From NCBI GenBank assembly GCA_029261295.1, contig JAJDBP010000007.1, positions 248,001 to 312,000 of the forward strand: DNA of 64,000 nucleotides. The letters are read 5' to 3'. Positions 43,953-62,796 of this stretch are shown one piece after another (positions within the stretch are counted from its first letter, which is position 1; each line of letters starts with the position of its first letter). The position numbers and the translations under genes are program-made. The notes below the pieces were generated by a model. That model saw nothing but the letters and a program-made list of their open reading frames with translations. It searched no databases and was not told where the DNA came from. The stretch comes from Nitrospirales bacterium (GTDB taxonomy: Bacteria > Nitrospirota > Nitrospiria > Nitrospirales > UBA8639).

Positions 43953-44058
43953 AGAGACTCCACAACGTTTTCTTGGCTTGTGATATTCAAAAAAATGCCT
44001 TGACCAAATGAGGCCCTTGGGGTTTAATAGCCTTTCTCAATTTCCGAGATTTCAGGCC

Positions 44059-44493
44059 ATGTCCAAACCCATCAAAGAACTCGAACTTCTCAAAAATCAT
44101 CTCGCTAAACATAGCCTCAAGCTCACCCGGCAGCGAGAACTCATTCTGACGACATTCCTGAAAATGGAGCATGTCACAGCCGAGCAGTTATATCATATTT
44201 TAGCCAAGAAAGACCCCCATATCGGCCTTGCCACTATATACCGAACCCTCAAGCTTTTCTGCGACACTGGCTTAGCACAAGAACGCCATTTCGGAACCCA
44301 AACGCAATTCGATAACGTGGCTCACAAAGGCCATCACGATCACCTGATTTGTACAGGGTGCGGGAAAATTGTGGAATTTAATAACTGCCAAATCGAAGAC
44401 TTACAAGAGGCTGTAGCCCGAAAAAACGGCTTTACCATCGAAACCCACAAACTCGAACTCTATGGCCTCTGCGCCAATTGTCAGCCTGCCTAA
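44059..44493 (+). CDS. fur: Fur family transcriptional regulator
   Basis: 144 residues from the ATG at 44059; a longer form from 44008 adds 17 residues. DNA-binding winged helix (LTRQRELILTTFLKMEHVTA, GLATIYRTLKLFCDTGLAQE). Metal sites: HHDHLICTGCGKIVEFN with CxxC, then LYGLCANCQPA with the second CxxC. The HHDH motif is the Fur regulatory site. In the presence of Fe2+, Fur represses iron uptake. It is just upstream of fbpABC, with a Fur-box-like site at the fbpA start. Perhaps it is Fur itself; a Zur/PerR member cannot be excluded by eye. Confidence 0.92.
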   Translation: MSKPIKELELLKNHLAKHSLKLTRQRELILTTFLKMEHVTAEQLYHILAKKDPHIGLATIYRTLKLFCDTGLAQERHFGTQTQFDNVAHKGHHDHLICTGCGKIVEFNNCQIEDLQEAVARKNGFTIETHKLELYGLCANCQPA

Positions 44494-44574
44494 GCTTATT
44501 TCAACCTCAGCAGTCGTATTCATTTGTTCGTACAATCTTGCCCCTTGAAGGAAATCCATAGTAAAGTGTACATT

Positions 44575-45630
44575 ATGAAAATGATTATTCAAATCGTTAG
44601 GAATTTCACAATAATACCTTATCTTTCAATACTTTTGGTCATGGGGTTATTGACTCTTGAACCTATTCATCTTCCAAAATCGTCTGCAGCCGAAACCGTG
44701 GTTGTCTATTCCGGTCGCGCCGAGCGATTAATTAAACCCGTTCTTGATCATTTTGAAAAGACGACGGGTACGTCCGTCCAACTCCTCACGGCAGGTAGCA
44801 CTGAATTAGTGAACCGGTTACGTGCGGAAAAAACTCGAACACCTGCTGATGTGTTTATCACGAATGAAGCAGGAGCATTGGAATTGGCCAGAAACCTGAA
44901 CTTACTCCAACCGATTACCCTTCCGGGAATCAAAACAATTATTCCTGAAGCCTTCCGTGCTCCCGATAATAGTTGGATTGGGCTTTCAGGACGGATGTGG
45001 GTCATTGTCTATAACACCAACATGGTAGATCCTTCTCATATCCATTCTCTATTAGATTTAGCGACACCATCCTGGAAAGGGAAATTAGCGATTCCTACAG
45101 CCAATAGCGAGTATCTTCAAGCCGGGGCCTCGATGGTTTTGGCGGCCAAAGGAAAACAAACGTCCAACAACTTTTTACAAGGCATTCGTGATAACGCCGA
45201 CAATGAAGTGTATGGGAAAAATCGTCAGATAGTAGATGCCGTCGCTAAAGGTAAAGTCAGTGTTGGCATTGTGAACCACTATTATATTTTCCGCCATTTG
45301 GCCAAAGACCCCCAAGCCCCCATTGCCCCTCTTATCACTGATCAAGAAGAAGGCGGCATGGGCAGCATCATGAATGTGGCCGGTATTGGCCTCACAGCCC
45401 ATGCGAAACATGTGTCTGCAGCGAACCAATTGATTGAATTTTTAATGTCTCCGACCGGACAAGAAATGTTTGCTCATACCAATAAAGAATATCCGGTGAA
45501 TCCTTCCGTGAAAGCTGATCCTGCAGTACCACCCGCTTCATCCTTTCGGGCTTCAACGATTCCCCTCACTCGGTTAGCCGAACTGCGTGAACCCATCATC
45601 CAAGAGATCCAACGCCTGGGTCTTCGCTAA
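44575..45630 (+). CDS. fbpA: Fe(III) ABC transporter substrate-binding protein
   Basis: 351 residues from ATG 44575. Sec signal (YLSILLVMGLLTLEPIHLPK, then SSAAE). Periplasmic ferric-binding fold: TVVVYSGRAERLIKPVLDHF, ADVFITNEAGAL, GLSGRMWVIVYNTN. The FbpA/FutA iron ligands are present as paired Tyr in NHYYIFRHL (Y236-Y237). It delivers Fe3+ to the FbpB permease. Next in the operon, after a palindromic repeat, comes fbpB. Confidence 0.94.
   Translation: MKMIIQIVRNFTIIPYLSILLVMGLLTLEPIHLPKSSAAETVVVYSGRAERLIKPVLDHFEKTTGTSVQLLTAGSTELVNRLRAEKTRTPADVFITNEAGALELARNLNLLQPITLPGIKTIIPEAFRAPDNSWIGLSGRMWVIVYNTNMVDPSHIHSLLDLATPSWKGKLAIPTANSEYLQAGASMVLAAKGKQTSNNFLQGIRDNADNEVYGKNRQIVDAVAKGKVSVGIVNHYYIFRHLAKDPQAPIAPLITDQEEGGMGSIMNVAGIGLTAHAKHVSAANQLIEFLMSPTGQEMFAHTNKEYPVNPSVKADPAVPPASSFRASTIPLTRLAELREPIIQEIQRLGLR
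44577..44595 (+). promoter_or_regulatory. Fur-box-like site overlapping fbpA start
   Basis: GAAAATGATTATTCAAATC matches the 19-bp Fur consensus GATAATGATAATCATTATC in 13 of 19 places. It begins at the G of the fbpA start codon, an unusual position. Confidence 0.45.
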
Positions 45631-45631
45631 T

Positions 45632-45785
45632 GGGAATGTTGAAAAAAGCCACCAACGGCGTTCCCTGCCTTCGCCGCAGCGGCTTCGCGCAGGCAGGTCG
45701 CATTTGGTCGTGGTCACGTACTGAGCGTACGCTCCGCCCGCCAAAATGGCTGCGGCCTTGCTGGGTGATTTTTTTGACCATTCCC
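45632..45785. repeat. MITE/palindromic repeat between fbpA and fbpB
   Basis: About 154 bp bounded by imperfect inverted repeats: GGGAATGTTGAAAAAAGCCA at left, and the reverse complement of the right end reads GGGAATGGTCAAAAAAATCA. Inside are smaller hairpins (CCTGCC...GGCAGG, CGTAC...GTACG). From memory it resembles a palindromic repeat common in Nitrospira. It lies in the fbpA-fbpB gap and could form an RNA hairpin that tunes expression. Confidence 0.65.
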
Positions 45786-45811
45786 GTAGGCTATTAACAG
45801 GGCGCTCCTAC

Positions 45812-47389
45812 ATGGTTCGCCATATCCAACTGACTCCACTTTCTTTTTTGGGGATTGGCATTGCCACGCTCCTGACGTTTCCTCTGTTGTATGTAGCCTA
45901 TTCAGCTTTCACCGGTGATCTTTCGCAGGCCGGGAACCTCTGGAATACACGACTCCCTGAATTAGTCACTAATACGATTTCCCTGGCAATTGGTGTTTCC
46001 ATCGCCACGCTCACTCTTGGGGTTTCTACGGCATGGCTTATCACGCGCTATCAATTTTGGGGGCGGGCATTTTGGGATTGGGGATTTGTGTTGCCATTGG
46101 CCATTCCTTCTTTTGTGTTGGCCTATGTGTACACGTATTTATTAGACAGGGGCGGACCAGTCGAACAATCCTGGCAATGGCTCGCCGGTGCAGATGTCCA
46201 TCTCCCCTCTCCCTATAGCTTTACTGGGGCTCTTGTGGTCATGACATTGAATACGTTCCCCTATGTGTATCTCTTAGCTCGTGCGGCGTTTCAAAATTTC
46301 AACCTCTCTTTTGAAGAAGCCGCCCAAGCCATGGGTGCCACACGCTGGGAAACATTTTTTCGCGTCTCCCTTCCGCTTATTCGACCCGCCTTAGTGGCCA
46401 GTATGTTTTTGGTGGTCCTTTACGTAGTATCGGATTTCGGAGCCGTCTCCCTTCTGCGATTTCAAACCTTTACCTACGCCATCTATCAACAAATCACTGG
46501 ACGATTTGATTATCAATCTGCGGCCCTGCTGAGCTTACTCTTAGTCACTTTTGCCCTCGTGTTTTTATTTGCCGAACGATGGTTCCGCCAACAAAGTCGG
46601 TTTTACCAGACGTCAGGCCGTGTTCGAACTGCCACGCCAAAACCCTGTTCGATGGGTCAGAACCTGGCGATTACCCTCTCATTCTTGATGATTTTTGTGG
46701 CAGCGTTTGGGCTGCCGGTCTTTTTACTTATTCAATGGACACTCACCGCTTGGACGAATGGGGAAGTGGGCAGCTCTTTTTGGACCTATATTGGAAATAG
46801 TGTCGTTCTTTCAGCTACAGCCGCAACCGCGGCCTTGGCATTGGGCACCCCTCTTGCGTATTTGGCTTCTCGCTTTCCATCCAAACTCCATATCGCCTGT
46901 TTGCAGGGCGCGTATATCGGATATGTCCTTCCTGGACCTGTTGCCGCATTGGCGCTTCTCATGTTGTTTACGGATGTGATTCCATTTCTGTACGGCACCG
47001 TATTCGTCCTGATTTTGGCCTACCTGATCCATTATCTGCCGGCCGGCTTACAAGCGATGGAATCGGCACTCCAACAAGTGAACCCAAACTTGGAAGAAGC
47101 AGCACGCAACCTCGGATCTAAAGGATTTCGAACGTTTTTTCAGATCACCTTTCCCCTCGTTCGAAAAGGGTTTTCGGCTGCCTGGCTCCTCATGTTTCTC
47201 CTCTGCATAAAAGAACTGCCGGCCACATTGCTCTTACGCCCAATAGGATTTGATACGTTGGCGGTGCGCGTTTGGTTGGAAGCCAGCGAAGAGCTGTATC
47301 AGCTTGCCGCCCCTCCAGCCTTGCTCATTGTAATTTTGTCAATTCCAGCCGTCTTCCTCTTATCCAAAAAGAATTGGCAGGCGGGTTAG
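45812..47389 (+). CDS. fbpB: Fe(III) ABC transporter permease
   Basis: About 525 residues from ATG 45812, with 12 expected membrane helices in two permease halves. Two EAA motifs, EEAAQAMGATRWETFFRVSL and EEAARNLGSKGFRTFFQITF, mark the ATPase contacts. Fused FbpB-type ferric permeases have this architecture. The frame extends upstream into the repeat element but lacks a ribosome site there. Confidence 0.93.
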   Translation: MVRHIQLTPLSFLGIGIATLLTFPLLYVAYSAFTGDLSQAGNLWNTRLPELVTNTISLAIGVSIATLTLGVSTAWLITRYQFWGRAFWDWGFVLPLAIPSFVLAYVYTYLLDRGGPVEQSWQWLAGADVHLPSPYSFTGALVVMTLNTFPYVYLLARAAFQNFNLSFEEAAQAMGATRWETFFRVSLPLIRPALVASMFLVVLYVVSDFGAVSLLRFQTFTYAIYQQITGRFDYQSAALLSLLLVTFALVFLFAERWFRQQSRFYQTSGRVRTATPKPCSMGQNLAITLSFLMIFVAAFGLPVFLLIQWTLTAWTNGEVGSSFWTYIGNSVVLSATAATAALALGTPLAYLASRFPSKLHIACLQGAYIGYVLPGPVAALALLMLFTDVIPFLYGTVFVLILAYLIHYLPAGLQAMESALQQVNPNLEEAARNLGSKGFRTFFQITFPLVRKGFSAAWLLMFLLCIKELPATLLLRPIGFDTLAVRVWLEASEELYQLAAPPALLIVILSIPAVFLLSKKNWQAG

Positions 47390-47456
47390 TCCTCAGTACA
47401 ATACACTTTGAAGGGTATGTGAGACCTCTTCTTATTGAAACGCTGCCAAGGGATTC

Positions 47457-48533
47457 ATGTCTTCATCCTCTAACACCTCTTCTCCAACCCCAATGTTGGA
47501 GTTACGAAACATGACTTGCGGATATCAGTCCGATGTCCCAACCGTTCGAAGTCTGACTCTCCACCTTCAGGCAGGAAATATCCTGTGCTTATTAGGACCT
47601 TCAGGATGCGGGAAAACAACGACTCTTCGGGCCATTGCAGGTTTTGAAAAACTTTCCGCTGGAGAAATCCATTTGCAAGGTGAGGTGTTAGCGTCCACCT
47701 CTGTTCACCTTCCTCCTGAACAACGACGAGTCGGGATGATCTTCCAGGAATATGCCTTGTTTCCCCATATGAATGTCGAGAACAACGTGGCGTTTGGGCT
47801 CTATCATTGGAAGGCTTCTGACCGTCAGGCTCGCGTGCAGGCCATGTTGGACTTAGTAGGACTACAGGGACTTGAGCACCGTTTTCCACATGAACTCTCT
47901 GGCGGGCAACAACAACGTGTGGCCATTGCCCGAGCCCTAGCTCCTAAACCCCTCATGCTGTTACTCGATGAACCCTTTAGTAACTTAGACCCGGACATGA
48001 CCATCAAAATGCGGAAGGAATTGTACCGAGTACTTCGGCAAACGCAAACGACGGCCATTTTGGTGACCCACGACCATGAAGAAGCCTTTGCGATGGCCGA
48101 TCAGGTGGCGGTGATGCAAAACGGGGTGCTAGTGCAATGTGATACGCCTGAGACTATTTATCAACAGCCCTCATGTTCGTTTGTGGCAGAATTTATTGGG
48201 CAGGCTAATACCATTCCTGGCATCATTCAAAACGGGAAAATTGAAACAGAAATTGGCACAATTCCCAATCAGTCGGATTTTGAGAGCCAGAGTCGGGTCT
48301 TAGTCATGGTTCGTCCAGATGATATTCAATTTACCCCATCTGAATCGGGCCCTGGTCGGATTGAAAGCCGGCAATTTCAAGGGTCACAAACCCTCTATTC
48401 TATTCGATTGAAATCCGGCCAACTCATTCACTGCTGCATGAAACCAATTCCTGTGTATAATATAGAAACATCTGTCATTGTCCATGTTACGACATCACAT
48501 ACCATTCTTTTTCCACAACCCGCTCTTTCGTAG
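47457..48533 (+). CDS. fbpC: Fe(III) ABC transporter ATP-binding protein
   Basis: 358 residues. ABC ATPase with Walker A CLLGPSGCGKTTTLRAIAGF, signature HELSGGQQQRVAIARALAPK, Walker B LMLLLDEPFSNLD, and H-loop LVTHDHEEAF. The C-terminal TOBE-like domain has VMVRPDDIQFTPSESGPG. It powers FbpAB. Follows fbpB with a 67-bp gap. Confidence 0.95.
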   Translation: MSSSSNTSSPTPMLELRNMTCGYQSDVPTVRSLTLHLQAGNILCLLGPSGCGKTTTLRAIAGFEKLSAGEIHLQGEVLASTSVHLPPEQRRVGMIFQEYALFPHMNVENNVAFGLYHWKASDRQARVQAMLDLVGLQGLEHRFPHELSGGQQQRVAIARALAPKPLMLLLDEPFSNLDPDMTIKMRKELYRVLRQTQTTAILVTHDHEEAFAMADQVAVMQNGVLVQCDTPETIYQQPSCSFVAEFIGQANTIPGIIQNGKIETEIGTIPNQSDFESQSRVLVMVRPDDIQFTPSESGPGRIESRQFQGSQTLYSIRLKSGQLIHCCMKPIPVYNIETSVIVHVTTSHTILFPQPALS

Positions 48534-54490: not shown

Positions 54491-55531
54491 CTAGGGCTCT
54501 AATCGCAACCGAGATTGAAGCCCAGAAGAAACCTTCACTTTCCCTTGAGCATTCACTATCACTCCTTCTACACCTGGCAATGATTCAATCAAGGCCATGC
54601 CTTTTTCTGGTCCCATGACAAAAATGCCGGTATCTAAGCCGTCAGCCATGACCCCTTCTTTGGCAATGATCGTCACGCTTTGGCAGCCCCGAGCAGGCTG
54701 CAGCGTCGTCGGATCGAGGATATGGTGATAACGAATACCATCCTTCATGATAAATCGTTGATAATCCCCAGCCGTCGACACGGCTTCATTCTCGAGCTCG
54801 ATGCGCCCTAAAATTTCCCCCTGATCTTTTCGTGGGTGCTGTATCCCAAAGATAAATCGTTCCTGGTCTGGTAGGCGTCCGAAGGTTTTAATATCGCCTG
54901 AAAGCGCGACCACTCCTGCCGTCGCTCCTACTTTCTTCATGACCTCGACCACTAAATCAGCTGTATAGCCTTTTCCAATACCACCAACATCAATTTGCAT
55001 CCCCTTATCTTTGAGAAAGACCGTTCCAGCCTCTTCATCAAGAACCACCTTGGCCAGCGAGGTGAGTGGGCGCACCATATCTAATTCTTGGTGTGTAGGA
55101 ATCCGTCCTTCCTGACTCACATTCCACGCCGTCACTGCAGGGCCCACGGCAATATTAAAACCCCCTTCAGTAAACTCAGCCATACGCAATGAGGCATTTA
55201 GCACTGCCATATTTTCTGCCCCGACCTGAACGGGACGTTGTCCTGCCGCGGCATTAACTTGTGAGAGTTCACTCGTAGATTTCCAGGTGCTCATGAGTTG
55301 TTCAATCCTTTGAATTTCCTTTAGACCCTCGGCTACTGCGCTCTTAGCTGTTTGTTCATCGGGGGCCACTCCGGTCACAAAAACTAGTGTTCCCATCAAA
55401 TACTGACTTCGCTTGATAAGCACCTCTTTGGCATGGCCTACTCCAAAAGCCACAGTCATGCCAACGAGTATGACCATGAAAAGGATTCCTCCTTTATGTA
55501 AAGTTGATGGCCTTCTCATTGAACGATTCAT
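54491..55531 (-). CDS. apbE: FAD:protein FMN transferase (ApbE)
   Basis: About 346 residues from ATG 55531 (GGAGA 6 nt upstream). Exported (GILFMVILVGMTVAFGVGHA). It moves FMN from FAD onto Thr/Ser of target proteins. Conserved blocks: IDVGGIGKGYTADLVVEVMK, ALSGDIKTFGR, RYHHILDPTTLQPARG and DGLDTGIFVMGPEKGMALI. It shares the divergent cluster with the SGAT-motif protein at 58690, the obvious target. Downstream of a lipoprotein gene in a two-gene unit. Confidence 0.95.
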   Translation of the reverse strand: MNRSMRRPSTLHKGGILFMVILVGMTVAFGVGHAKEVLIKRSQYLMGTLVFVTGVAPDEQTAKSAVAEGLKEIQRIEQLMSTWKSTSELSQVNAAAGQRPVQVGAENMAVLNASLRMAEFTEGGFNIAVGPAVTAWNVSQEGRIPTHQELDMVRPLTSLAKVVLDEEAGTVFLKDKGMQIDVGGIGKGYTADLVVEVMKKVGATAGVVALSGDIKTFGRLPDQERFIFGIQHPRKDQGEILGRIELENEAVSTAGDYQRFIMKDGIRYHHILDPTTLQPARGCQSVTIIAKEGVMADGLDTGIFVMGPEKGMALIESLPGVEGVIVNAQGKVKVSSGLQSRLRLEP

Positions 55532-55597
55532 TTTTCTTCTCCAATAACCCAATACGCTTTTTTCTCAACGGATAAGGTCCTGATTATCTTTGCTCGG

Positions 55598-56191
55598 TCA
55601 TCTCCGATAAAAATACTTGGCTCGAGGCTGGGAAGGAGCGACCGCAAAAAGACGATTCTGATTAGTTCCAGGTTGAGGGGTTGAAACCATCAAGGCCTTC
55701 TCCCCAAGTTCGGGGTGCAAGAGAAGTAGCTGCTCCCAATCAGGTACTCCCGTGAACACATCCAATTGGAGCATTCTGACCGTTTTGGGTGCATCAATCC
55801 GTAATCGCCAAATCCCCAAGTAATTCGTTTTATCAGGAAAGACATCAAAGTTCATATCGGTATACGATTCTGACCGAAAGGGCCCTTCGCCAATTTGTAT
55901 CCGAAGCACGTGATAGTGACCGGGAGACAACCTCACCACAAACCTCTTTGCCTTTTCTCTCACATGGACTCTTATCAATTCTCCTGTTCCTTCATTCCTC
56001 ACATCAAAAAATCGAACCTGGGCCTCTGTCTGATGCTTTCGGAAGTACGGACCCTTTGGCTCTAAGTGAAGAAAACCAACTACAACTGGCCCCCTTTTCA
56101 TTTCCTCTTCACTGTCTTTTAATGCCGAGGTTGGACACCCCATCACCAGGAGCCAACCAAGTATCAGAACACGAACTGTCCACCAAGACAT
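55598..56191 (-). CDS. Hypothetical lipoprotein (ApbE operon)
   Basis: 197 residues. Lipoprotein signal VRVLILGWLLVMGCPTS (lipobox VMGC). The mature part is beta-rich: VVVGFLHLEPKGPYFRKH, FVVRLSPGHYHVLRIQIG, and DVFPDKTNYLGIWRLRID, reading like a DUF of surface-attached carboxypeptidase-regulatory-like fold. No family recognised. It is the first gene of the leftward unit with apbE, opposite the porin-FMN unit, so a role in the same envelope system is likely. Confidence 0.7.
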   Translation of the reverse strand: MSWWTVRVLILGWLLVMGCPTSALKDSEEEMKRGPVVVGFLHLEPKGPYFRKHQTEAQVRFFDVRNEGTGELIRVHVREKAKRFVVRLSPGHYHVLRIQIGEGPFRSESYTDMNFDVFPDKTNYLGIWRLRIDAPKTVRMLQLDVFTGVPDWEQLLLLHPELGEKALMVSTPQPGTNQNRLFAVAPSQPRAKYFYRR

Positions 56192-56426
56192 TGAGCACTC
56201 AACCTTTCAAGACTATCGCTTCACTCCATTGAGGTTCGCATTTTTTGTATTAGCCTTCAGGTGTGCGATTTTTTGGTGCTCATGGAATAGCGTCATTGCT
56301 CCAATTATCTACCAAAATCCTCTGATTTGGGGAAGATTGCTACTTTCTACCGAAAACCGCTTAGACCCTTTGTTTTCAAATAAATTCCTCTTTGGGGATT
56401 GACAAACTCGCCTGCATTTCTTTATT

Positions 56427-56445
56427 AATAATGGTTATCAATATC
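56427..56445. promoter_or_regulatory. Fur-box-like site 1
   Basis: AATAATGGTTATCAATATC matches 15 of 19 positions of the Fur consensus, in the shared control region of the two divergent units. Confidence 0.6.
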
Positions 56446-56454
56446 AATTAGCTT

Positions 56455-56473
56455 GGAATTCATAATCATTCTC
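56455..56473. promoter_or_regulatory. Fur-box-like site 2
   Basis: On the minus strand GAGAATGATTATGAATTCC, 13 of 19 matches to the Fur consensus, nine bases from site 1. A tandem pair is common in Fur-controlled promoters. Confidence 0.5.
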
Positions 56474-56503
56474 AATTACTACGCACAATAGATTGTATTT
56501 TTC

Positions 56504-56728
56504 ATGGATGCAAGTCAGGTTCAAACGGAAAACACCAGTTCAAAATCAGGTCTGTCTGAGGCTCGGTGTGAATGTGGGCAGCTAGTCGCCAAGTTAGGAG
56601 TTGGAAGTCTTGAGTTGAAGTGCAAGCGCTGTAAACGTCTTGTTTCTATCCCTTTTTCTTCCCTTTCTCACTCCGAAGTAACGGTCTCGCTCTGCACCAC
56701 CACATCCTCCACAGGCACATCTTCCTAA
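56504..56728 (+). CDS. Com-like small zinc-ribbon protein
   Basis: 74 residues. A four-Cys zinc ribbon, ARCECGQLVAKLGVG then ELKCKRCKRLVSI (CxC...CxxC). It resembles phage Mu Com, a translational regulator (IRCKNCNKLL...CPRCKR). Flanks are Ser/Thr-rich and probably disordered. No phage genes surround it. As the first gene after the Fur-like sites it may regulate the downstream porin mRNA; this is inference. Confidence 0.6.
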   Translation: MDASQVQTENTSSKSGLSEARCECGQLVAKLGVGSLELKCKRCKRLVSIPFSSLSHSEVTVSLCTTTSSTGTSS

Positions 56729-56828
56729 CCGTTTGATTGACTTGCGATAAAACCAGAGGGCCTCTGAGCTCCATTTTTCATTCACCTCAGAGGGCCAAGG
56801 AGTCCCAAATTTTTTGGGAGTATCGATA

Positions 56829-58253
56829 ATGAACGTTTGGATAATGTTTAGAGTAGTTGTGAGCATCAGTGTTCTTGCCGGGATACCAGGCATGAGTGAG
56901 GACGCCCAAGCAAGAGATAGAGACGCTGCAGATTCGGCACCAGTCAGCGTGCTTTCGAAGGAAGAGATCGAACAGATCACTGAACAAAAAGTCGAAGAGT
57001 ATATGCGCCAACTTTCCCAACCCCCTCCGACGACGGATTTCTCTAACGTGCAAATTCGAGGCTTGGGACAAACCAACCAATCACAAAAGAGAATTCAACA
57101 AGGCAGTGGGGATTGGGTCACGGGAGGGAGTGTTCTTGAGGGTGGACGAACGGTGTATGCTAAACCCTTTGTCCGTGTCCCCAAAACGATCGTTGGGGGC
57201 TATATCGACTTCACCATTTCAGATTGTAATAACGCGAATGCCCGAGATTGCTCAGAAGGATTGGAGTTCGACCAAGAGCGCTTTGTGCCATTCTTTTATT
57301 CTCAAGTCACTGACCGGTTGAGTGTTGCCGCTGAAGTCGAAATTGAACATGGCGGTCCTCAAAGCAATCAGGGAGATGGCGATGTCAAAATCGAATTCGC
57401 CACCATGGACTATCGGTTTGAAGATTGGATAAACCTCCGCGGTGGCATCATATTGCTTCCGGTTGGTCGGTTCAATCTTGTCCACGACTCCCCGCTCAAT
57501 GACCTCCCTCTTCGTCCTATGGTCAGCCGCTTGATTATACCTTCGACCTTTGCTGAATCAGGAATTGGCTTTTTCGGGACCGTGTATCCCACGCAGCTTT
57601 CTAAAGTCGACTACGAATTTTATGTGACCCAAGGATTTACAGGAGGAAGCAGCTCCCCAGGTGGGGCCACCTTTGGAGAGGGCGGATATCGAGGAAGTCG
57701 AGGAAGCTTCAAGACAGATAACAATCAAAATAAAGCCATCGTGAGCCGCGTGTCGGTCAGTCCTATTCTTGGGATCGAAGTGGCAGGCTCAGTGCATCAT
57801 GGCAAATGGGATAATGAAGCCAAGCACAACCTGACCATTTTGGCTGTCGACGGCCTGATTCAACGAGGACCATTTGAATTGCTTGGAGAGGCTGGCTGGA
57901 CACGAATTGGCGGCGGTTCCAAAAATCCTATGACCACCAACGGAACCCCTCCCAAGCGAATGAAAGGGTATTTTGTCCAAGGCAATTACCATTTCATGCC
58001 TGTGATACTGCAACAATGGGCTCCAACTTACTTTGGAGATTCCTCAACGTTCACTGCCGTCGTGCGATGGGGGGATGTGGACACCAACACTCAACGGAAA
58101 AGAAATCAAAATGATTTGCAACGCTTGACGCTCGGCTTCAATTTCAGACCCGTTGAAGATTCTGTGATCAAATTTGCATGGACCTTTAATGACCATAAGA
58201 TTATGCCGGAATCTCGCAATGGCTGGCAGGTTTCCATGGCAACCTATTTCTAA
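56829..58253 (+). CDS. Outer-membrane porin (OprO/P-like) of the FMN cluster
   Basis: About 474 residues from ATG 56829 (GGGAG 8 nt before). Signal peptide (MFRVVVSISVLAGIPGMSED, cut near AQA). A short coiled segment (EIEQITEQKVEEYMRQLSQ) as in trimeric porins precedes the barrel. Strand motifs include AVEIEHGGPQSNQGDGDVKI, INLRGGIILLPVGRFNLVHD, and the C-terminus NGWQVSMATYF, ending in Phe. SDCNNANARDC may form a disulfide loop. Likely the outer-membrane conduit for the substrate, perhaps a ferric chelate. Confidence 0.8.
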   Translation: MNVWIMFRVVVSISVLAGIPGMSEDAQARDRDAADSAPVSVLSKEEIEQITEQKVEEYMRQLSQPPPTTDFSNVQIRGLGQTNQSQKRIQQGSGDWVTGGSVLEGGRTVYAKPFVRVPKTIVGGYIDFTISDCNNANARDCSEGLEFDQERFVPFFYSQVTDRLSVAAEVEIEHGGPQSNQGDGDVKIEFATMDYRFEDWINLRGGIILLPVGRFNLVHDSPLNDLPLRPMVSRLIIPSTFAESGIGFFGTVYPTQLSKVDYEFYVTQGFTGGSSSPGGATFGEGGYRGSRGSFKTDNNQNKAIVSRVSVSPILGIEVAGSVHHGKWDNEAKHNLTILAVDGLIQRGPFELLGEAGWTRIGGGSKNPMTTNGTPPKRMKGYFVQGNYHFMPVILQQWAPTYFGDSSTFTAVVRWGDVDTNTQRKRNQNDLQRLTLGFNFRPVEDSVIKFAWTFNDHKIMPESRNGWQVSMATYF

Positions 58254-58255
58254 TC

Positions 58256-58696
58256 ATGAAAAATTTGTTCATCAGGAATAGTCTTTTCCTCATATTGCTA
58301 ACGGGGTGCGCTGGCTGGACCAGCGCGCCTCAACTTGCGACCACATGTCCGCCTGAGGATACCTGGAGTATTGCACTGGCTAGTCTGCAAGAGTTTGAAC
58401 TGCGTCGCATCGATAAGGCCAACGGAGTGATTGAGACGGAATGGATTGCCGTCCATAACCAGAAGACCGCCCGTAGTGGACTCTTTCAGCGAAGTATGAA
58501 CGAAGAACGAGCACGATTTATTCTCAATATTGCTCCCGAAAATCAAGGCAGCATGATCACGGTTAAACAAATCCGAGAATTTTGGTCACCGCAAGGCGTG
58601 CAATCTCGCGCATGGCGACAAATACCGCCCCATGAAGAACAAGAACGTCAACTCGCAAACCGCATTGAAACCCGGCTCAAGAGGCAAGCATGTTAA
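58256..58696 (+). CDS. Small lipoprotein in FMN cluster
   Basis: 146 residues. Lipoprotein signal (NSLFLILLTGC, Cys 18). TCPPEDTWSIALASLQEFEL, then RIDKANGVIETEWIAVHNQK and ITVKQIREFW suggest a BamC/NlpB-like alpha/beta lipoprotein. It starts 2 bp after the porin stop and overlaps the FMN-protein start, so translation is coupled. Confidence 0.75.
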   Translation: MKNLFIRNSLFLILLTGCAGWTSAPQLATTCPPEDTWSIALASLQEFELRRIDKANGVIETEWIAVHNQKTARSGLFQRSMNEERARFILNIAPENQGSMITVKQIREFWSPQGVQSRAWRQIPPHEEQERQLANRIETRLKRQAC

Positions 58697-59409
58697 TGTT
58701 TATTCATTCATCCATCGTTCAAAAATTTTTCCTTGCAAGCGTCATGATTTTTCTTTTGGGCACAGGCCTTTCTTCCTTGCAGGCCGCAGAACCCCATCCT
58801 GAGAAAATTTGGGATCAAGAGCTCAAACGTTGGCTCACACCCGAAGAACTCGGGCATATGGAAATCTTCTTCACAGAGAACGAAGCAGCCAAAGTGATGT
58901 TTCCCGACTCGGAACACATTCGTCGAGAAACCCTTTCCCTTTCCGCTGAACAAAAGGATTTAGTGGAACAGCGCATTGGCTGGAAATTTCCAGAAACTTC
59001 TTTTCCAGTGTATATAGGCGAAACCCAGGGAAAGATCGATGGCTATGCCCTGGTCCAAAATACTATCGGCAAACATCGCCCTATTACGTACATGGTTGGG
59101 GTGGATCCCGAAGGGGAAGTGACGAATTTTGAAGTGTTAATCTATCGCGAATCACGAGGCAACGAAATCGCGACAAAGCGATTCAATTACCAATACCAAG
59201 GCAAGGACGCCCGAGATCCCATTCGCATTAATCGAGACATTATCAATATTTCTGGAGCCACAATGTCGGTTCGATCAGCAAGCGCAGGCGTGAAGAGAGT
59301 TCTTGTTCTCGTTGATGAATTTTATTTAAAACCTCTCGGATTGGGAACGAACACCCTGGTGGCTGGAAGTACAGAAAAAGGATTTCTAGAATCTCTTCTC
59401 GGGTTTTGA
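58690..59409 (+). CDS. Exported FMN-binding protein with flavinylation motif
   Basis: 239 residues. Signal peptide (KFFLASVMIFLLGTGLSSLQ, cut after AA). The FMN-binding domain (~100-210) ends in the flavinylation motif IINISGATMSVRS, with Thr 191 as the acceptor of FMN from ApbE. The 8-residue motif SGATxS is that of NqrC/RnfG-type proteins. Before it, GYALVQNTIGKHRPITYMVG and VLIYRESRGNEI. No heme CxxCH motif. It overlaps the lipoprotein gene (ATGTTA). It likely carries electrons across the periplasm to an acceptor such as ferric iron. Confidence 0.9.
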   Translation: MLMFIHSSIVQKFFLASVMIFLLGTGLSSLQAAEPHPEKIWDQELKRWLTPEELGHMEIFFTENEAAKVMFPDSEHIRRETLSLSAEQKDLVEQRIGWKFPETSFPVYIGETQGKIDGYALVQNTIGKHRPITYMVGVDPEGEVTNFEVLIYRESRGNEIATKRFNYQYQGKDARDPIRINRDIINISGATMSVRSASAGVKRVLVLVDEFYLKPLGLGTNTLVAGSTEKGFLESLLGF

Positions 59410-59426
59410 GTAAAGTACTTTCCTGA

Positions 59427-59939
59427 ATGCGAAATTTTAATGCACGATTTCGCCTCCGCGATACTGACCGTCACGTTCGTTTAGTCTATACCTGGTTTCT
59501 TCTCCTCATGCTCGCCGGTTTTGTCTTTACCTTCGTCTGGGCTCACGACATGACTCAACTCACACCCAAAGGGCTTGCCGCCCATTATCGGGGCTCGGAT
59601 GCCAACTTTGGTGAAGCCATGTCATTCGGACAACTATCAGAAACGATGCATTTTCACCTATTCACCATGCCTGTCGTGTTTATGATCCTGGTACATGTCC
59701 TCTATTTGACGATGATCAGCCCATTTCTCAAGGTTTTGACCACCTGGATTTCATTTTTAGGCGTCACACTCGATCTAATTTCGCCTTGGCTCATTACCTA
59801 TGTATCCCCCATCTTTGTCCTCACCATGTTGACCGGAGATTTATTGATGGTCATTGGATTTCTCATCATGTTTGTCGTGCCCATGTATGAAATGTGGTGG
59901 CAAAAGGCGGCCTTTATGATGCCCGAGGATGACGACTAA
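59427..59939 (+). CDS. His-containing inner-membrane protein of FMN cluster
   Basis: 170 residues, four membrane helices (~20-40, 78-97, 105-125, 130-155). His at 40, 75, 77 and 90 lie near helix ends (WAHD, ETMHFHLF, LVHVLYL), a pattern fit for heme b, but not a known cytochrome motif. The acidic tail is EDDD. It starts 17 bp after the FMN gene. As the only inner-membrane protein of the unit, it may pass electrons from quinol to the FMN protein. I recognise no family. Confidence 0.7.
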   Translation: MRNFNARFRLRDTDRHVRLVYTWFLLLMLAGFVFTFVWAHDMTQLTPKGLAAHYRGSDANFGEAMSFGQLSETMHFHLFTMPVVFMILVHVLYLTMISPFLKVLTTWISFLGVTLDLISPWLITYVSPIFVLTMLTGDLLMVIGFLIMFVVPMYEMWWQKAAFMMPEDDD

Positions 59940-60440
59940 CCCCTTCCACCATCATCCTCGACAGCCCTAATCAATGATCCATCTTCTCCTTTTTTAAATA
60001 ATATTTGTGGCCTCTACCAACAGGATCCACGATTCATCACCCTTTCATATGTTCGTGTCCAACAAGAACACTTGGCAGGCCATGTCTGCTCAACCGCTTC
60101 TGTTCACGACAATTCGCAAGGAGCCTTTTTTGTCGGACGAGATTGGGGTCTCACAGAAAAGCCTGACTTTTGCCTTTTGCCTCAAAGAATGTCACAAGAA
60201 GAAAAGATGAGAATTTCATGAGAATCAAATTAAAAAATCATGAGAGTAGATTCGAGAATAGGGTTGTAGAGTTGCATGCTCCTGTTACCAAAACCCACTA
60301 AACATCATACTGAAAGAGTCTTCTCTGAATATGAAGACGTACTACAAATATTTTTCTTTCAATTTTTCTTCCCACTTTATTCACCGGGAAGGTATATGCT
60401 ACAAGCCATCGTCTTAAAACCTTCGATGGGAGAACTCAAC
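59940..60440. other. Gap between FMN cluster and beta-barrel gene
   Basis: About 501 bp. Small frames occur but have no ribosome site or family. The barrel start is placed at 60441. Confidence 0.4.
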
Positions 60441-61340
60441 ATGGCAACAAAGGGTTATTTGATTTTAAAATATGTCCTTGCAAGTGCCTTAATCGGACTG
60501 ATGAGCTTTCCACTCTTGTCTAGCGCCCAAGAGTCTGATCCAACCTGGCAAATTTCAGCCAATCCGTCCTATAGCCGAGGGGATTATGGAGGCGACACCA
60601 CAACCTCTGCTTTCTACTTGCCCTTTTCTGTGAAACGCTTATTTAGTTTTGGAGAGCTTTCCGTCACCGTCCCTTTCGTCACCATTACCAGCAACGACCT
60701 GATAACCTTTGTGGGCGGTGATCGTAGTGGCGGTGGGGGAAGCAACAGCGGTTCGGGAAGCAGTAATAGCGGATCTGGCAGCAGTGGACCATCCGATGAT
60801 GATGACGACGATGATGATGACGACGAGTTCACAACAAAAAGAACGAAAAAAACGGAAAGCGGATTGGGGGATGTCACCCTCTCGGCTCGCTATTATCTTT
60901 TAGACGAGCAAGAATGGATCCCCTCCATAAATTTAACCGGCCGAGTCAAATTCCCCACGGCGAACGAGAAAAAAGGTTTGGGAACTGGCGAATTTGATGA
61001 GGGCTTTGGAGTTGAGTTGGCAAAGTCTCTCACGAGAGATCTGATTCTTTACTTAGACGGTGGATACACCTTTCTGGGTGACCCCAAGGGCAGAAATTTT
61101 CGAAACCAATGGAATTACGATGTGGGCCTGGGGTATTACATTACTGATGATTTACGCACCAGCGTGTTTTATGAGGAATTTCGAGCGGTGGTAAAAGGGA
61201 TTCCGAATCCACGCGACCTTTATGGTGATCTGAGTTATCGAATCACCAATGCGATTCGCCTCACTATTGGCGGGTTCGTGGGTCTTTCAGAAAGTGCGGC
61301 GGATTTTGGACTTTCAGGGGGACTGCGCTTTAGATTTTAA
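60441..61340 (+). CDS. Outer-membrane beta-barrel protein with Asp10 loop
   Basis: About 299 residues from ATG 60441 (GGGAGA 7 nt upstream). Signal peptide (VLASALIGLMSFPLLSSA). Strands of a transport-type barrel: FSFGELSVTVPFVTIT, LILYLDGGYTFLGD and a C-terminal GGLRFRF with terminal Phe. A Gly/Ser linker leads into ten consecutive Asp (residues 119-128) written as mixed GAT/GAC, then a basic TKRTKK. The insert sits in an extracellular or periplasmic loop and could bind Ca2+ or other cations. It ends 3 bp from the convergent RD-rich gene. Confidence 0.75.
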   Translation: MATKGYLILKYVLASALIGLMSFPLLSSAQESDPTWQISANPSYSRGDYGGDTTTSAFYLPFSVKRLFSFGELSVTVPFVTITSNDLITFVGGDRSGGGGSNSGSGSSNSGSGSSGPSDDDDDDDDDDEFTTKRTKKTESGLGDVTLSARYYLLDEQEWIPSINLTGRVKFPTANEKKGLGTGEFDEGFGVELAKSLTRDLILYLDGGYTFLGDPKGRNFRNQWNYDVGLGYYITDDLRTSVFYEEFRAVVKGIPNPRDLYGDLSYRITNAIRLTIGGFVGLSESAADFGLSGGLRFRF

Positions 61341-61343
61341 ACG

Positions 61344-62384
61344 TCAATCATCTCTGCCACCCCGCCCACGACCGCTGGAGTCACCTCCCCGATCACCACG
61401 ATCTCGTTGGAAATCAGAGTTCTCTCGAGACTCACGTCCACGATCAAAGCGCTCTCGTGACTCAATGCGATCCCTCTCTCTTCCGGATCGATCATCTTTT
61501 TCACTATTTCGTTCACGATCAAATCGTTCTCTGGACTCGTTACGATCTCGATCCTTGTCTCTTTCGGATTGATCATCTCTTCGGCTTCGTTCACGATCGT
61601 TCTTTTTCGAGGAATTGCGATCTTCTTTGCGAGACTCTCTGTCCCCACCACCGCGTCCTGAACCGGACCCGCGATCACGGTCGAAAATTTTGTCGGGGCG
61701 TTCCCCTCGTTCAACGGCTTTTTTAATATCCTGAATGCGATTACGGTCAGCTCGAAATTCCTTTCCACGCTTTTTGATTTCTCTGCCGAGATCGAGCAAT
61801 TCATTCGATCGAAACCCCTGCCGCAAAGCCTCTCCTACTACCGGAATGGCTTCTTTGCCGGAAATGCCCCCTTCCTTCGTCAAGGCCAACCCCTTGGCTC
61901 CAAAGGCCAGTTCCTCCTGATTCACTCTACTTTTTCCTCTAGAACGTCCTAGCGATCGCACTTCGTCAACAGTTACCCCTCGACCTAACGCTTCAGCCAT
62001 GACTTCGGTTGCTCGGGAGTTACCTCCTTTTTCAGATCCACCTGAATTCGCATCCCGCAAAACCTCACGAGCGTCACGAAGATTTCCCACCATATCCCGA
62101 ACAACCGGTTGAATGCGTTCCGGGGATGCGCCTTTGGCCAAGCCCTCTTTAATCTTATTCATGATCGGACGTTCTGGAAGACCTTGGTCTATGGCCTTTT
62201 GCGCATGTTCAAGCAGTCGATCAATTGATTCCGGCGCATGCCCTCTGGCTTGCCCCAACCGATTAATGTCTTGAACATCTTTGGCAGGTAAGGAGGCAGT
62301 TTGTCCCACATAAGGACAGAGAATAATCACTAGGATAGTTAATCCAAAGCTCAATTTTTTCATCATATGCATGCTTTGTTTCAT
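61344..62384 (-). CDS. Secreted Arg/Asp-rich repeat protein
   Basis: About 346 residues from ATG 62384. Signal peptide (LSFGLTILVIILCPYVGQTA). A helical middle (~30-210) with recurring ALGRGVTVDEVRSLGR-like units. The last ~110 residues are almost only R, D, E, S, G and N (FDRDRGSGSGRGGGDRESRK; two ESRERFDR units), likely disordered. It follows the CBM48 lipoprotein in the same direction. Not recognised. The polyampholyte tail may bind surface or matrix polymers. Confidence 0.7.
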   Translation of the reverse strand: MKQSMHMMKKLSFGLTILVIILCPYVGQTASLPAKDVQDINRLGQARGHAPESIDRLLEHAQKAIDQGLPERPIMNKIKEGLAKGASPERIQPVVRDMVGNLRDAREVLRDANSGGSEKGGNSRATEVMAEALGRGVTVDEVRSLGRSRGKSRVNQEELAFGAKGLALTKEGGISGKEAIPVVGEALRQGFRSNELLDLGREIKKRGKEFRADRNRIQDIKKAVERGERPDKIFDRDRGSGSGRGGGDRESRKEDRNSSKKNDRERSRRDDQSERDKDRDRNESRERFDRERNSEKDDRSGRERDRIESRERFDRGRESRENSDFQRDRGDRGGDSSGRGRGGRDD

Positions 62385-62415
62385 TAGGAATGCTTGGGTA
62401 TCAATGGGTACAACC

Positions 62416-62796
62416 CTATCGCACAACTACGACTCCATTTTTTTGTCCAAATCCGTCATCAACATAATCATCTGCCAGAGGAGGGACGACCCATTGCTCA
62501 CCATTCACGACAAACATAAATACATGTTCTCCAGATGATAACGGCACCACCACAGACCATCGTTCCCCATCCTCCTGTATCAAGACATTTGCCGTATGCG
62601 ACCAATCATTAAAATCGCCCACTACCGCAACAGATTGCACGTTGGGAAGCACCAAAGAAAATTCTACGCCGCCCTCTATTTGCTGGGACACCACAGGCAC
62701 TGGTGAAGAGGAGGCACAGGCGCCCAGAAGACCATGGGCCAACCCAAATACAAACAGAAAGAATATTGAAGGAAGAGATTTCTTCGAGACCATCAT
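62416..62796 (-). CDS. CBM48-like glycogen-binding lipoprotein
   Basis: 126 residues from ATG 62796. Lipoprotein signal (IFFLFVFGLAHGLLGAC, lipobox LGAC). The rest is one AMPK/isoamylase-type carbohydrate-binding domain: VQSVAVVGDFNDWSHTANVL and HVFMFVVNGEQWVVPP. The same fold sits at the C-terminus of the adjacent anti-sigma factor, so the two may share a ligand. Confidence 0.85.
   Translation of the reverse strand: MMVSKKSLPSIFFLFVFGLAHGLLGACASSSPVPVVSQQIEGGVEFSLVLPNVQSVAVVGDFNDWSHTANVLIQEDGERWSVVVPLSSGEHVFMFVVNGEQWVVPPLADDYVDDGFGQKNGVVVVR

Follow-up and report, generated by a model that had tools for sequence, protein, structure and literature searches.

Iron assimilation with flavinylated proteins and the cluster studied

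Flavin-based, Fur-repressed assimilation of iron has already been described for PepSY-like clusters and for P19-FTR1 clusters that contain genes for proteins binding flavin mononucleotide (FMN) (PMC8238504). In Caulobacter, a Fur-regulated operon (CC_3059-3063) combines DUF2271 with ApbE (PMC3751524), and DUF4405 and FezC are cytochromes linked to flavinylation (PMC11334425). Here we describe a divergent gene cluster at positions 54491-59939 of a 64,000-nucleotide stretch from a Nitrospirales bacterium (assembly GCA_029261295.1, contig JAJDBP010000007.1, positions 248,001 to 312,000), hereafter referred to as the window. This cluster is probably a Fur-repressed iron-assimilation module in which a flavin protein would reduce Fe(III) with electrons delivered through a 170-residue membrane protein, tm170. 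The in silico support for this reading covers the gene content, its conservation, the Fur sites, the linkage to iron uptake genes and the fusion of ApbE to the FMN-binding protein in relatives.

Nitrospira includes major nitrite oxidisers and comammox bacteria, whose enzymes are very rich in iron. The module would fill a gap in how the nitrite-oxidising Nitrospira and their relatives, bacteria of global importance, obtain iron, for which it is a near-universal, Fur-controlled candidate. An earlier note on this stretch, made from the sequence alone, had stated that the gene set is not a named system. No description of it was found in the open-access literature, which cannot prove absence, and the kind of system is already known. 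Searches of the two flavinylation surveys (PMC8238504 and PMC11334425) gave no mention of Nitrospir*, and none of porins in the first or in the preprint of the second. ApbE is not mentioned in the FeGenie paper (PMC7005843), a catalogue of iron genes, and the genome paper of Nitrospira marina (PMC8115632) mentions neither ApbE, flavin nor siderophores.

Gene content and conservation of the cluster

All seven open reading frames that the earlier note had assigned to the two divergent units were confirmed. The minus strand carries apbE (54491-55552), which encodes an FAD:protein FMN transferase (FAD, flavin adenine dinucleotide), and lp197 (55598-56191), which encodes a putative, lineage-specific lipoprotein. 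The plus unit begins with a 74-residue zinc ribbon of the Com-like CxCG/CxxC type (56504-56728), followed by a predicted 16-strand porin (56829-58253, with 56829 as the likely start), the lipoprotein lp146 (58256-58696), an exported FMN_bind protein (58690-59409) and tm170 (59427-59939), a four-helix inner-membrane protein with invariant histidines, which putatively delivers electrons to the flavin protein. No significant match was found for tm170, the porin or lp197 when the window proteins were compared with Pfam.

When tm170 was used as the query of a scan, 78 loci were obtained, almost all from Nitrospirota, Nitrospirales or Nitrospira. Neighbours were counted in those of the 78 Nitrospirota loci that had enough flanking sequence. 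The gene adjoining tm170 or its unit was FMN_bind in all 72 loci, lp146 in 68 of 70, the porin in 58 of 59, the zinc ribbon in 55 of 56 and the divergent apbE in all 47, with lp197 present in only 16 of 47. The neighbourhood that the earlier note had proposed to look for in other Nitrospirota is therefore kept, and its conserved core consists of the zinc ribbon, porin, FMN protein and tm170 together with ApbE, lp197 being optional.

tm170 itself is present in 56 of 60 near relatives and in 154 of the 197 genomes of the class. A wider profile, with the CxxCH-type matches described below counted in, found it in 116 of the 296 genomes of the phylum, and further out in the phylum the order fur-zinc ribbon-porin-FMN-tm170 was observed (L172). 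In the 22 genomes without tm170 the FMN profile found nothing, in a run that had no positive control genome, so the co-loss of the FMN_bind protein with tm170 is suggestive only. In some families of Nitrospirales (L125-L128 and L130), a porin-lp146-FMN-tm170 unit was found without an adjoining apbE or zinc ribbon, and in most of these genomes apbE is located elsewhere.

Fur sites and linkage to iron uptake genes

A sigma-70-type promoter for the zinc ribbon-porin unit (TTGACA-N18-TATTAAT, positions 56399-56429 of the plus strand) was read from the sequence of the divergent intergenic region. Its -10 element is overlapped by the Fur-box-like site AATAATGGTTATCAATATC (56427-56445, plus strand), which agrees with the E. 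coli consensus at 16 of 19 positions and is the best Fur-type site of the window; none so good is expected from shuffling. Fur-box-like sites common to both units had been claimed for this region, and the claim stands for this site; the second and weaker one (56455-56473, plus strand, 14/19) is not above chance on its own, as about 1.6 sites of that quality are expected per 64 kb.

Across the whole 4.06 Mb genome, only two sites lie within three mismatches of the E. coli consensus, one at the cluster promoter and one at a bfd-like gene, with no site found for the reversed-pattern control. The bfd-like gene is the nearest one downstream of the second site and its product has a CxC...CCGxC pattern; it gave no Pfam hit, and its name rests on likeness to the Nitrospira defluvii protein, which is a Fer2_BFD member (PF04324, 1e-8). 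A near-identical site, GATATTAATAATCGTTCTC, is placed over the -10 element of a TTGAC / TATTAAT promoter in 38 related loci. Searched with up to three mismatches, this word occurs three times in the N. defluvii genome, namely at the cluster, at the Fer2_BFD gene and at an AraC-TonB operon; the word was derived from the cluster, so that only the other two matches are independent. The score of the Fur site exceeds that of shuffled sequence at p<=0.05 in 48 of 55 loci, an 18/19 Fur box precedes the porin in L175, and a Fur box is found upstream of fur itself in L113, L114 and L124. The predicted Fur control of the cluster is thus strongly supported in silico. A further Fur-like site near fbpA (44571-44595) lies over the likely start codon and is not claimed.

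The uptake of another metal or of an anion (Mn, Zn or phosphate), under a Fur-family regulator other than Fur, could be considered here, as the genome has three Fur-family genes, the porin is weakly similar to Porin_O_P and a ZIP-like gene is found near the AraC-TonB site of N. defluvii. We regard this as very improbable, however, since the same motif occurs at bfd and TonB genes, the linked transporters are of the FTR1, FeoB and FbpABC types, and a ferritin-like gene lies near the cluster in N. defluvii and also in L173.

The role in iron acquisition put forward by the earlier note is supported by these sites together with linkage to fur, FbpABC, ExbBD-TonB, FTR1 and FeoB. In the window, fur (44008-44493, plus strand; PF01475, 2.7e-35) lies 10 kb upstream of the cluster and is followed on the same strand by genes for an FbpABC-type ATP-binding cassette transporter (44524-48533), consisting of a binding protein (44524-45630), a permease (45746-47389) and an ATPase (47457-48533). 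The binding protein was identified with Pfam, whereas the permease and ATPase were assigned from their sequences and from orthologues that Pfam had typed. Homologues of fur, fbpA or fbpB occur beyond apbE in 32 of the 37 loci with enough flank. The order in N. defluvii is fbpA-fbpB-fbpC-exbB-exbD-tonB, then apbE and the porin unit.

Loci of sister orders also show linkage of fur with the unit (L113-L119, L121, L123, L124 and L129), the gene standing directly upstream of the zinc ribbon in L113, L114 and L124 and directly upstream of the porin in L123. L119 has the gene run fur-cupredoxin-FTR1-zinc ribbon-porin-ApbE::FMN-tm170, of which the first three genes were typed by Pfam. In a distant relative, L174, a zinc ribbon-porin-FMN-tm170 unit is preceded by FeoB (3e-50), which lies downstream of fur. 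FTR1-like and DtxR-like frames were also seen upstream of the unit in this locus (L174:4078-8830, minus strand), where fur and FeoB alone are confirmed by Pfam and the FTR1-like frame was recognised by eye only.

The transporters bear on the main rival to our reading, which uses the same parts: iron would be taken up, though not as Fe(II), with the flavin transiently reducing a ferric chelate or siderophore to free its iron and FbpABC taking up Fe(III). FbpABC is indeed the commonest linked transporter and ExbBD-TonB adjoins the unit in N. defluvii. On the other hand, no TonB receptor was found within the module, where an ordinary porin is conserved instead, and FeoB is the linked transporter in L174. 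We consider this variant unlikely, though it deserves more weight than the other alternatives.

ApbE, the FMN_bind protein and their fusion in sister orders

The earlier note had identified an ApbE and an exported protein with an SGAT motif, and both identifications hold. ApbE matches PF02424 (3.3e-77) over profile positions 1-265 of 266 and has an export signal with a hydrophobic stretch at residues 22-38. Its partner matches PF04205 (6.5e-9) and has an N-terminal signal and the acceptor motif SGATM, and its closest solved relative is RnfG (2.6e-8). The predicted attachment residue, Thr191 (codon 59260-59262), lies within DIINISGATMS and is invariant in an alignment of 26 sequences. As the genome contains a single ApbE match and a single FMN_bind match, the two proteins are each other's only evident partner, and the sequence suggests that FMN is carried on Thr191.

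In twelve sister-order loci (L113-L121, L123, L124 and L129), ApbE and FMN_bind form a single reading frame with ApbE first, for example L118:7395-8906. Several of these loci are from the same families and they do not represent twelve independent events. In L113 a frameshift divides the ApbE part between two frames that overlap. A twin-arginine motif (e.g. SRRRFL) occurs at the junction of the two domains in all twelve, and in ten of them it precedes a segment whose hydrophobicity exceeds the threshold. The ApbE part lacks an N-terminal hydrophobic signal. Internal start codons are an unlikely alternative to fusion; none is conserved upstream of the twin-arginine motif and two of the twelve loci have no start codon at all within 25 codons of it.

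The FMN_bind domain is probably exported, since it stands behind the twin-arginine motif. The simplest reading of the fusion is that a cytoplasmic ApbE domain would load FMN onto its own C-terminal domain, which would then be exported in folded form by the twin-arginine translocation (Tat) system. If true, such self-flavinylating modules would need no periplasmic supply of FAD. In the passages found, a 2025 review of ApbE (PMC12052999) names the fumarate reductases of kinetoplastids as the sole substrates to which ApbE is fused, and neither Tat nor twin-arginine occurs as a word in the review.

The membrane protein tm170

The sequence of tm170 suggests a membrane redox protein, most likely one that bears heme. 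AlphaFold predicts a bundle of four membrane helices with moderate confidence (predicted local distance difference test score, pLDDT, 77). Five histidines (H40, H53, H75, H77 and H90) are invariant in the Nitrospirales orthologues, and in the class-wide alignment E72, H75, H77 and H90 are invariant in all 38 sequences, with H53 present in 37. A widened search found relatives of 236-253 residues with a CxxCH motif placed after the first helix and ahead of the HxH helix. They occur in nine of the 16 fetched loci and L131 provides a tenth. The redox role is proposed because of the invariant E72, H75, H77 and H90 and of these CxxCH relatives, examples of which are L131:6006-6812, L177:4725-5480 and L178:5124-5849. 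Three genes lie in a row in L178, one resembling tm170, a divergent FMN_bind-like gene and the CxxCH relative; the FMN_bind-like gene was matched by the FMN profile and has neither a Pfam hit nor an SGAT site.

For the 170-residue protein, which the earlier note had proposed to search against heme families with hidden Markov models, no Pfam match was found. tm170 and 43 orthologues gave no PepSY match in Pfam, the sequence search of tm170 against the PDB gave no match, and neither did a tblastn search of plasmids with a tm170 relative. Most of the phylum hits of DUF4405 (PF14358) resemble cytochrome b, and with a mixed alignment the profile comparison was uninformative. A likeness between the E-x4-H-x12-H pattern and the copper motif of PmoC was considered but is not claimed.

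A redox pair of this kind could also serve in an iron-sparing chain, where tm170 and the flavin protein would replace a heme-rich electron path in the manner of flavodoxin replacing ferredoxin whenever cytochromes rich in iron are in short supply. Fur repression suits such a role, as do a flavin as the carrier and relatives of tm170 with CxxCH, but the porin, the lipoproteins and the recurrent linkage to iron transporters would be left unexplained and tm170 may itself require heme. We judge this chain to be improbable, and it is, like a role in the uptake of a metal other than iron, less likely than the reduction of Fe(III) by the flavin protein.

Porin, zinc ribbon and lipoproteins

The porin, which has an N-terminal signal and a coiled-coil-like helix, was modelled by AlphaFold as a 16-strand barrel (pLDDT 64), for which Foldseek gave matches among trimeric porins, OmpM1 being one (5e-12), in agreement with its annotation in the earlier note. 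Among its orthologues, 28 of 38 match Porin_O_P in Pfam at E<=0.01 (best 7e-8), with no match for the window porin. A second porin gene was observed directly 3' of tm170 in three loci (L132:8666-10282, L063:10722-12236 and L070:6746-8242).

The zinc ribbon has no signal peptide and its four cysteines are invariant in 60 of 60 sequences. Its zinc-ribbon character is upheld, whereas the likeness to Com is weak, the PF10122 score being 14.7 bits against a cut-off of 22.9 (E=0.02). It also matches a PHROG family of translational regulators (2e-5) and is perhaps an RNA-level regulator. Both lipoproteins named in the earlier note have a lipobox cysteine, Cys18 in lp146 (kept in 69/69 orthologues, with further conserved cysteines at 31 and 146) and Cys19 in lp197 (19/19).

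Directly downstream of the cluster lies a convergent pair of genes (window positions 60276-61340 and 61344-62426). The product of the first is an outer-membrane protein (Phenol_MetA_deg, 5e-10) that contains a run of Asp, and that of the second is secreted and has a tail rich in Arg, Asp and Ser. Homologues of the pair also occur together near tm170 in L007 and L018.

Proposed mechanism

In the model that we prefer, Fur would leave the operator overlapping the promoter when iron is scarce, so that both divergent units are made. Using FAD as the source, periplasmic ApbE would place FMN on Thr191 of the exported FMN_bind protein. Quinol in the membrane would supply electrons to tm170, which would hand them to this flavin, probably by way of a histidine-bound heme. 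With the 16-strand porin as its way in, Fe(III), whether free or chelated, would then be reduced by the flavin protein. The reduced or released iron would finally cross the inner membrane through the transporter encoded nearby, which depends on the lineage (FbpABC, FTR1 with a cupredoxin, or FeoB). Flavinylation, the heme in tm170, the direction from quinol to iron, the substrate of the porin and the roles of the zinc ribbon and lipoproteins are the steps that we infer.

Several observations weigh against this model. The heme in tm170 is putative, as the protein matches neither a Pfam family nor a fold and has a model of only moderate confidence; in the fold search of the PDB no hit exceeded what helical bundles give by chance. 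The usual roles of FbpABC and FTR1 are in Fe(III) import or oxidation-coupled uptake, so that reduction need not be the transported step, and only the FeoB-linked relative (L174) clearly points to Fe(II). For the porin, the resemblance is to general and anion-type porins and not to a known iron channel. Finally, ApbE is kept in 10 of the 22 genomes without tm170, so that within the order its occurrence extends beyond the module.

A broader proposal is that tm170 represents a new family of membrane redox proteins that are partners in flavinylation, including subfamilies with covalent heme c, and that the ApbE-Tat-FMN_bind polypeptide of the sister orders acquires its flavin in the cytoplasm by its own activity and is then exported in folded form. 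We put this forward tentatively, holding it slightly more doubtful than probable.

Comparison with known systems

The new elements of this module are tm170, which lies outside any Pfam family, its CxxCH relatives, and the sister-order ApbE-FMN_bind polypeptide with a twin-arginine motif. A function is thereby proposed for a membrane family that has no Pfam entry, and a self-flavinylating fusion enzyme open to testing is indicated. This polypeptide resembles the kinetoplastid ApbE-fumarate reductase fusion (PMC12052999) in that a flavin transferase is N-terminal to its own substrate. It differs in its substrate, an FMN_bind domain behind a twin-arginine motif, and in the genome of the window ApbE and FMN_bind are separate genes.

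RnfG and NqrC have the FMN_bind fold with Thr-linked FMN, both of which are predicted here as well. Unlike these systems, the cluster contains no other Rnf or Nqr part and provides a single small membrane partner. The DUF4405, FezC and MsrQ-type proteins (PMC11334425) are likewise small membrane proteins with conserved histidines that are linked to flavinylated proteins and iron, but with Pfam none of the 43 tm170 members matched any of these families at E<=1.

In the P19-FTR1 clusters (Meheust et al. 2021, PMC8238504) an FMN_bind gene adjoins FTR1, and L119 similarly has fur-cupredoxin-FTR1 in the same gene run. Those clusters are mostly Gram-positive; no P19 was seen here, and the porin, zinc ribbon and tm170 are additional. 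The PepSY/DUF2271/ApbE operons (Caulobacter, Shewanella and FoxB-type) share with this module Fur control, ApbE and iron assimilation, as well as a flavinylated periplasmic protein and a membrane electron donor, which are predicted here. Here, in contrast, the substrate is an FMN_bind protein, its partner tm170 has no PepSY match and a porin takes the place of the TonB receptor, which would add a porin-based branch to flavin-dependent iron assimilation.

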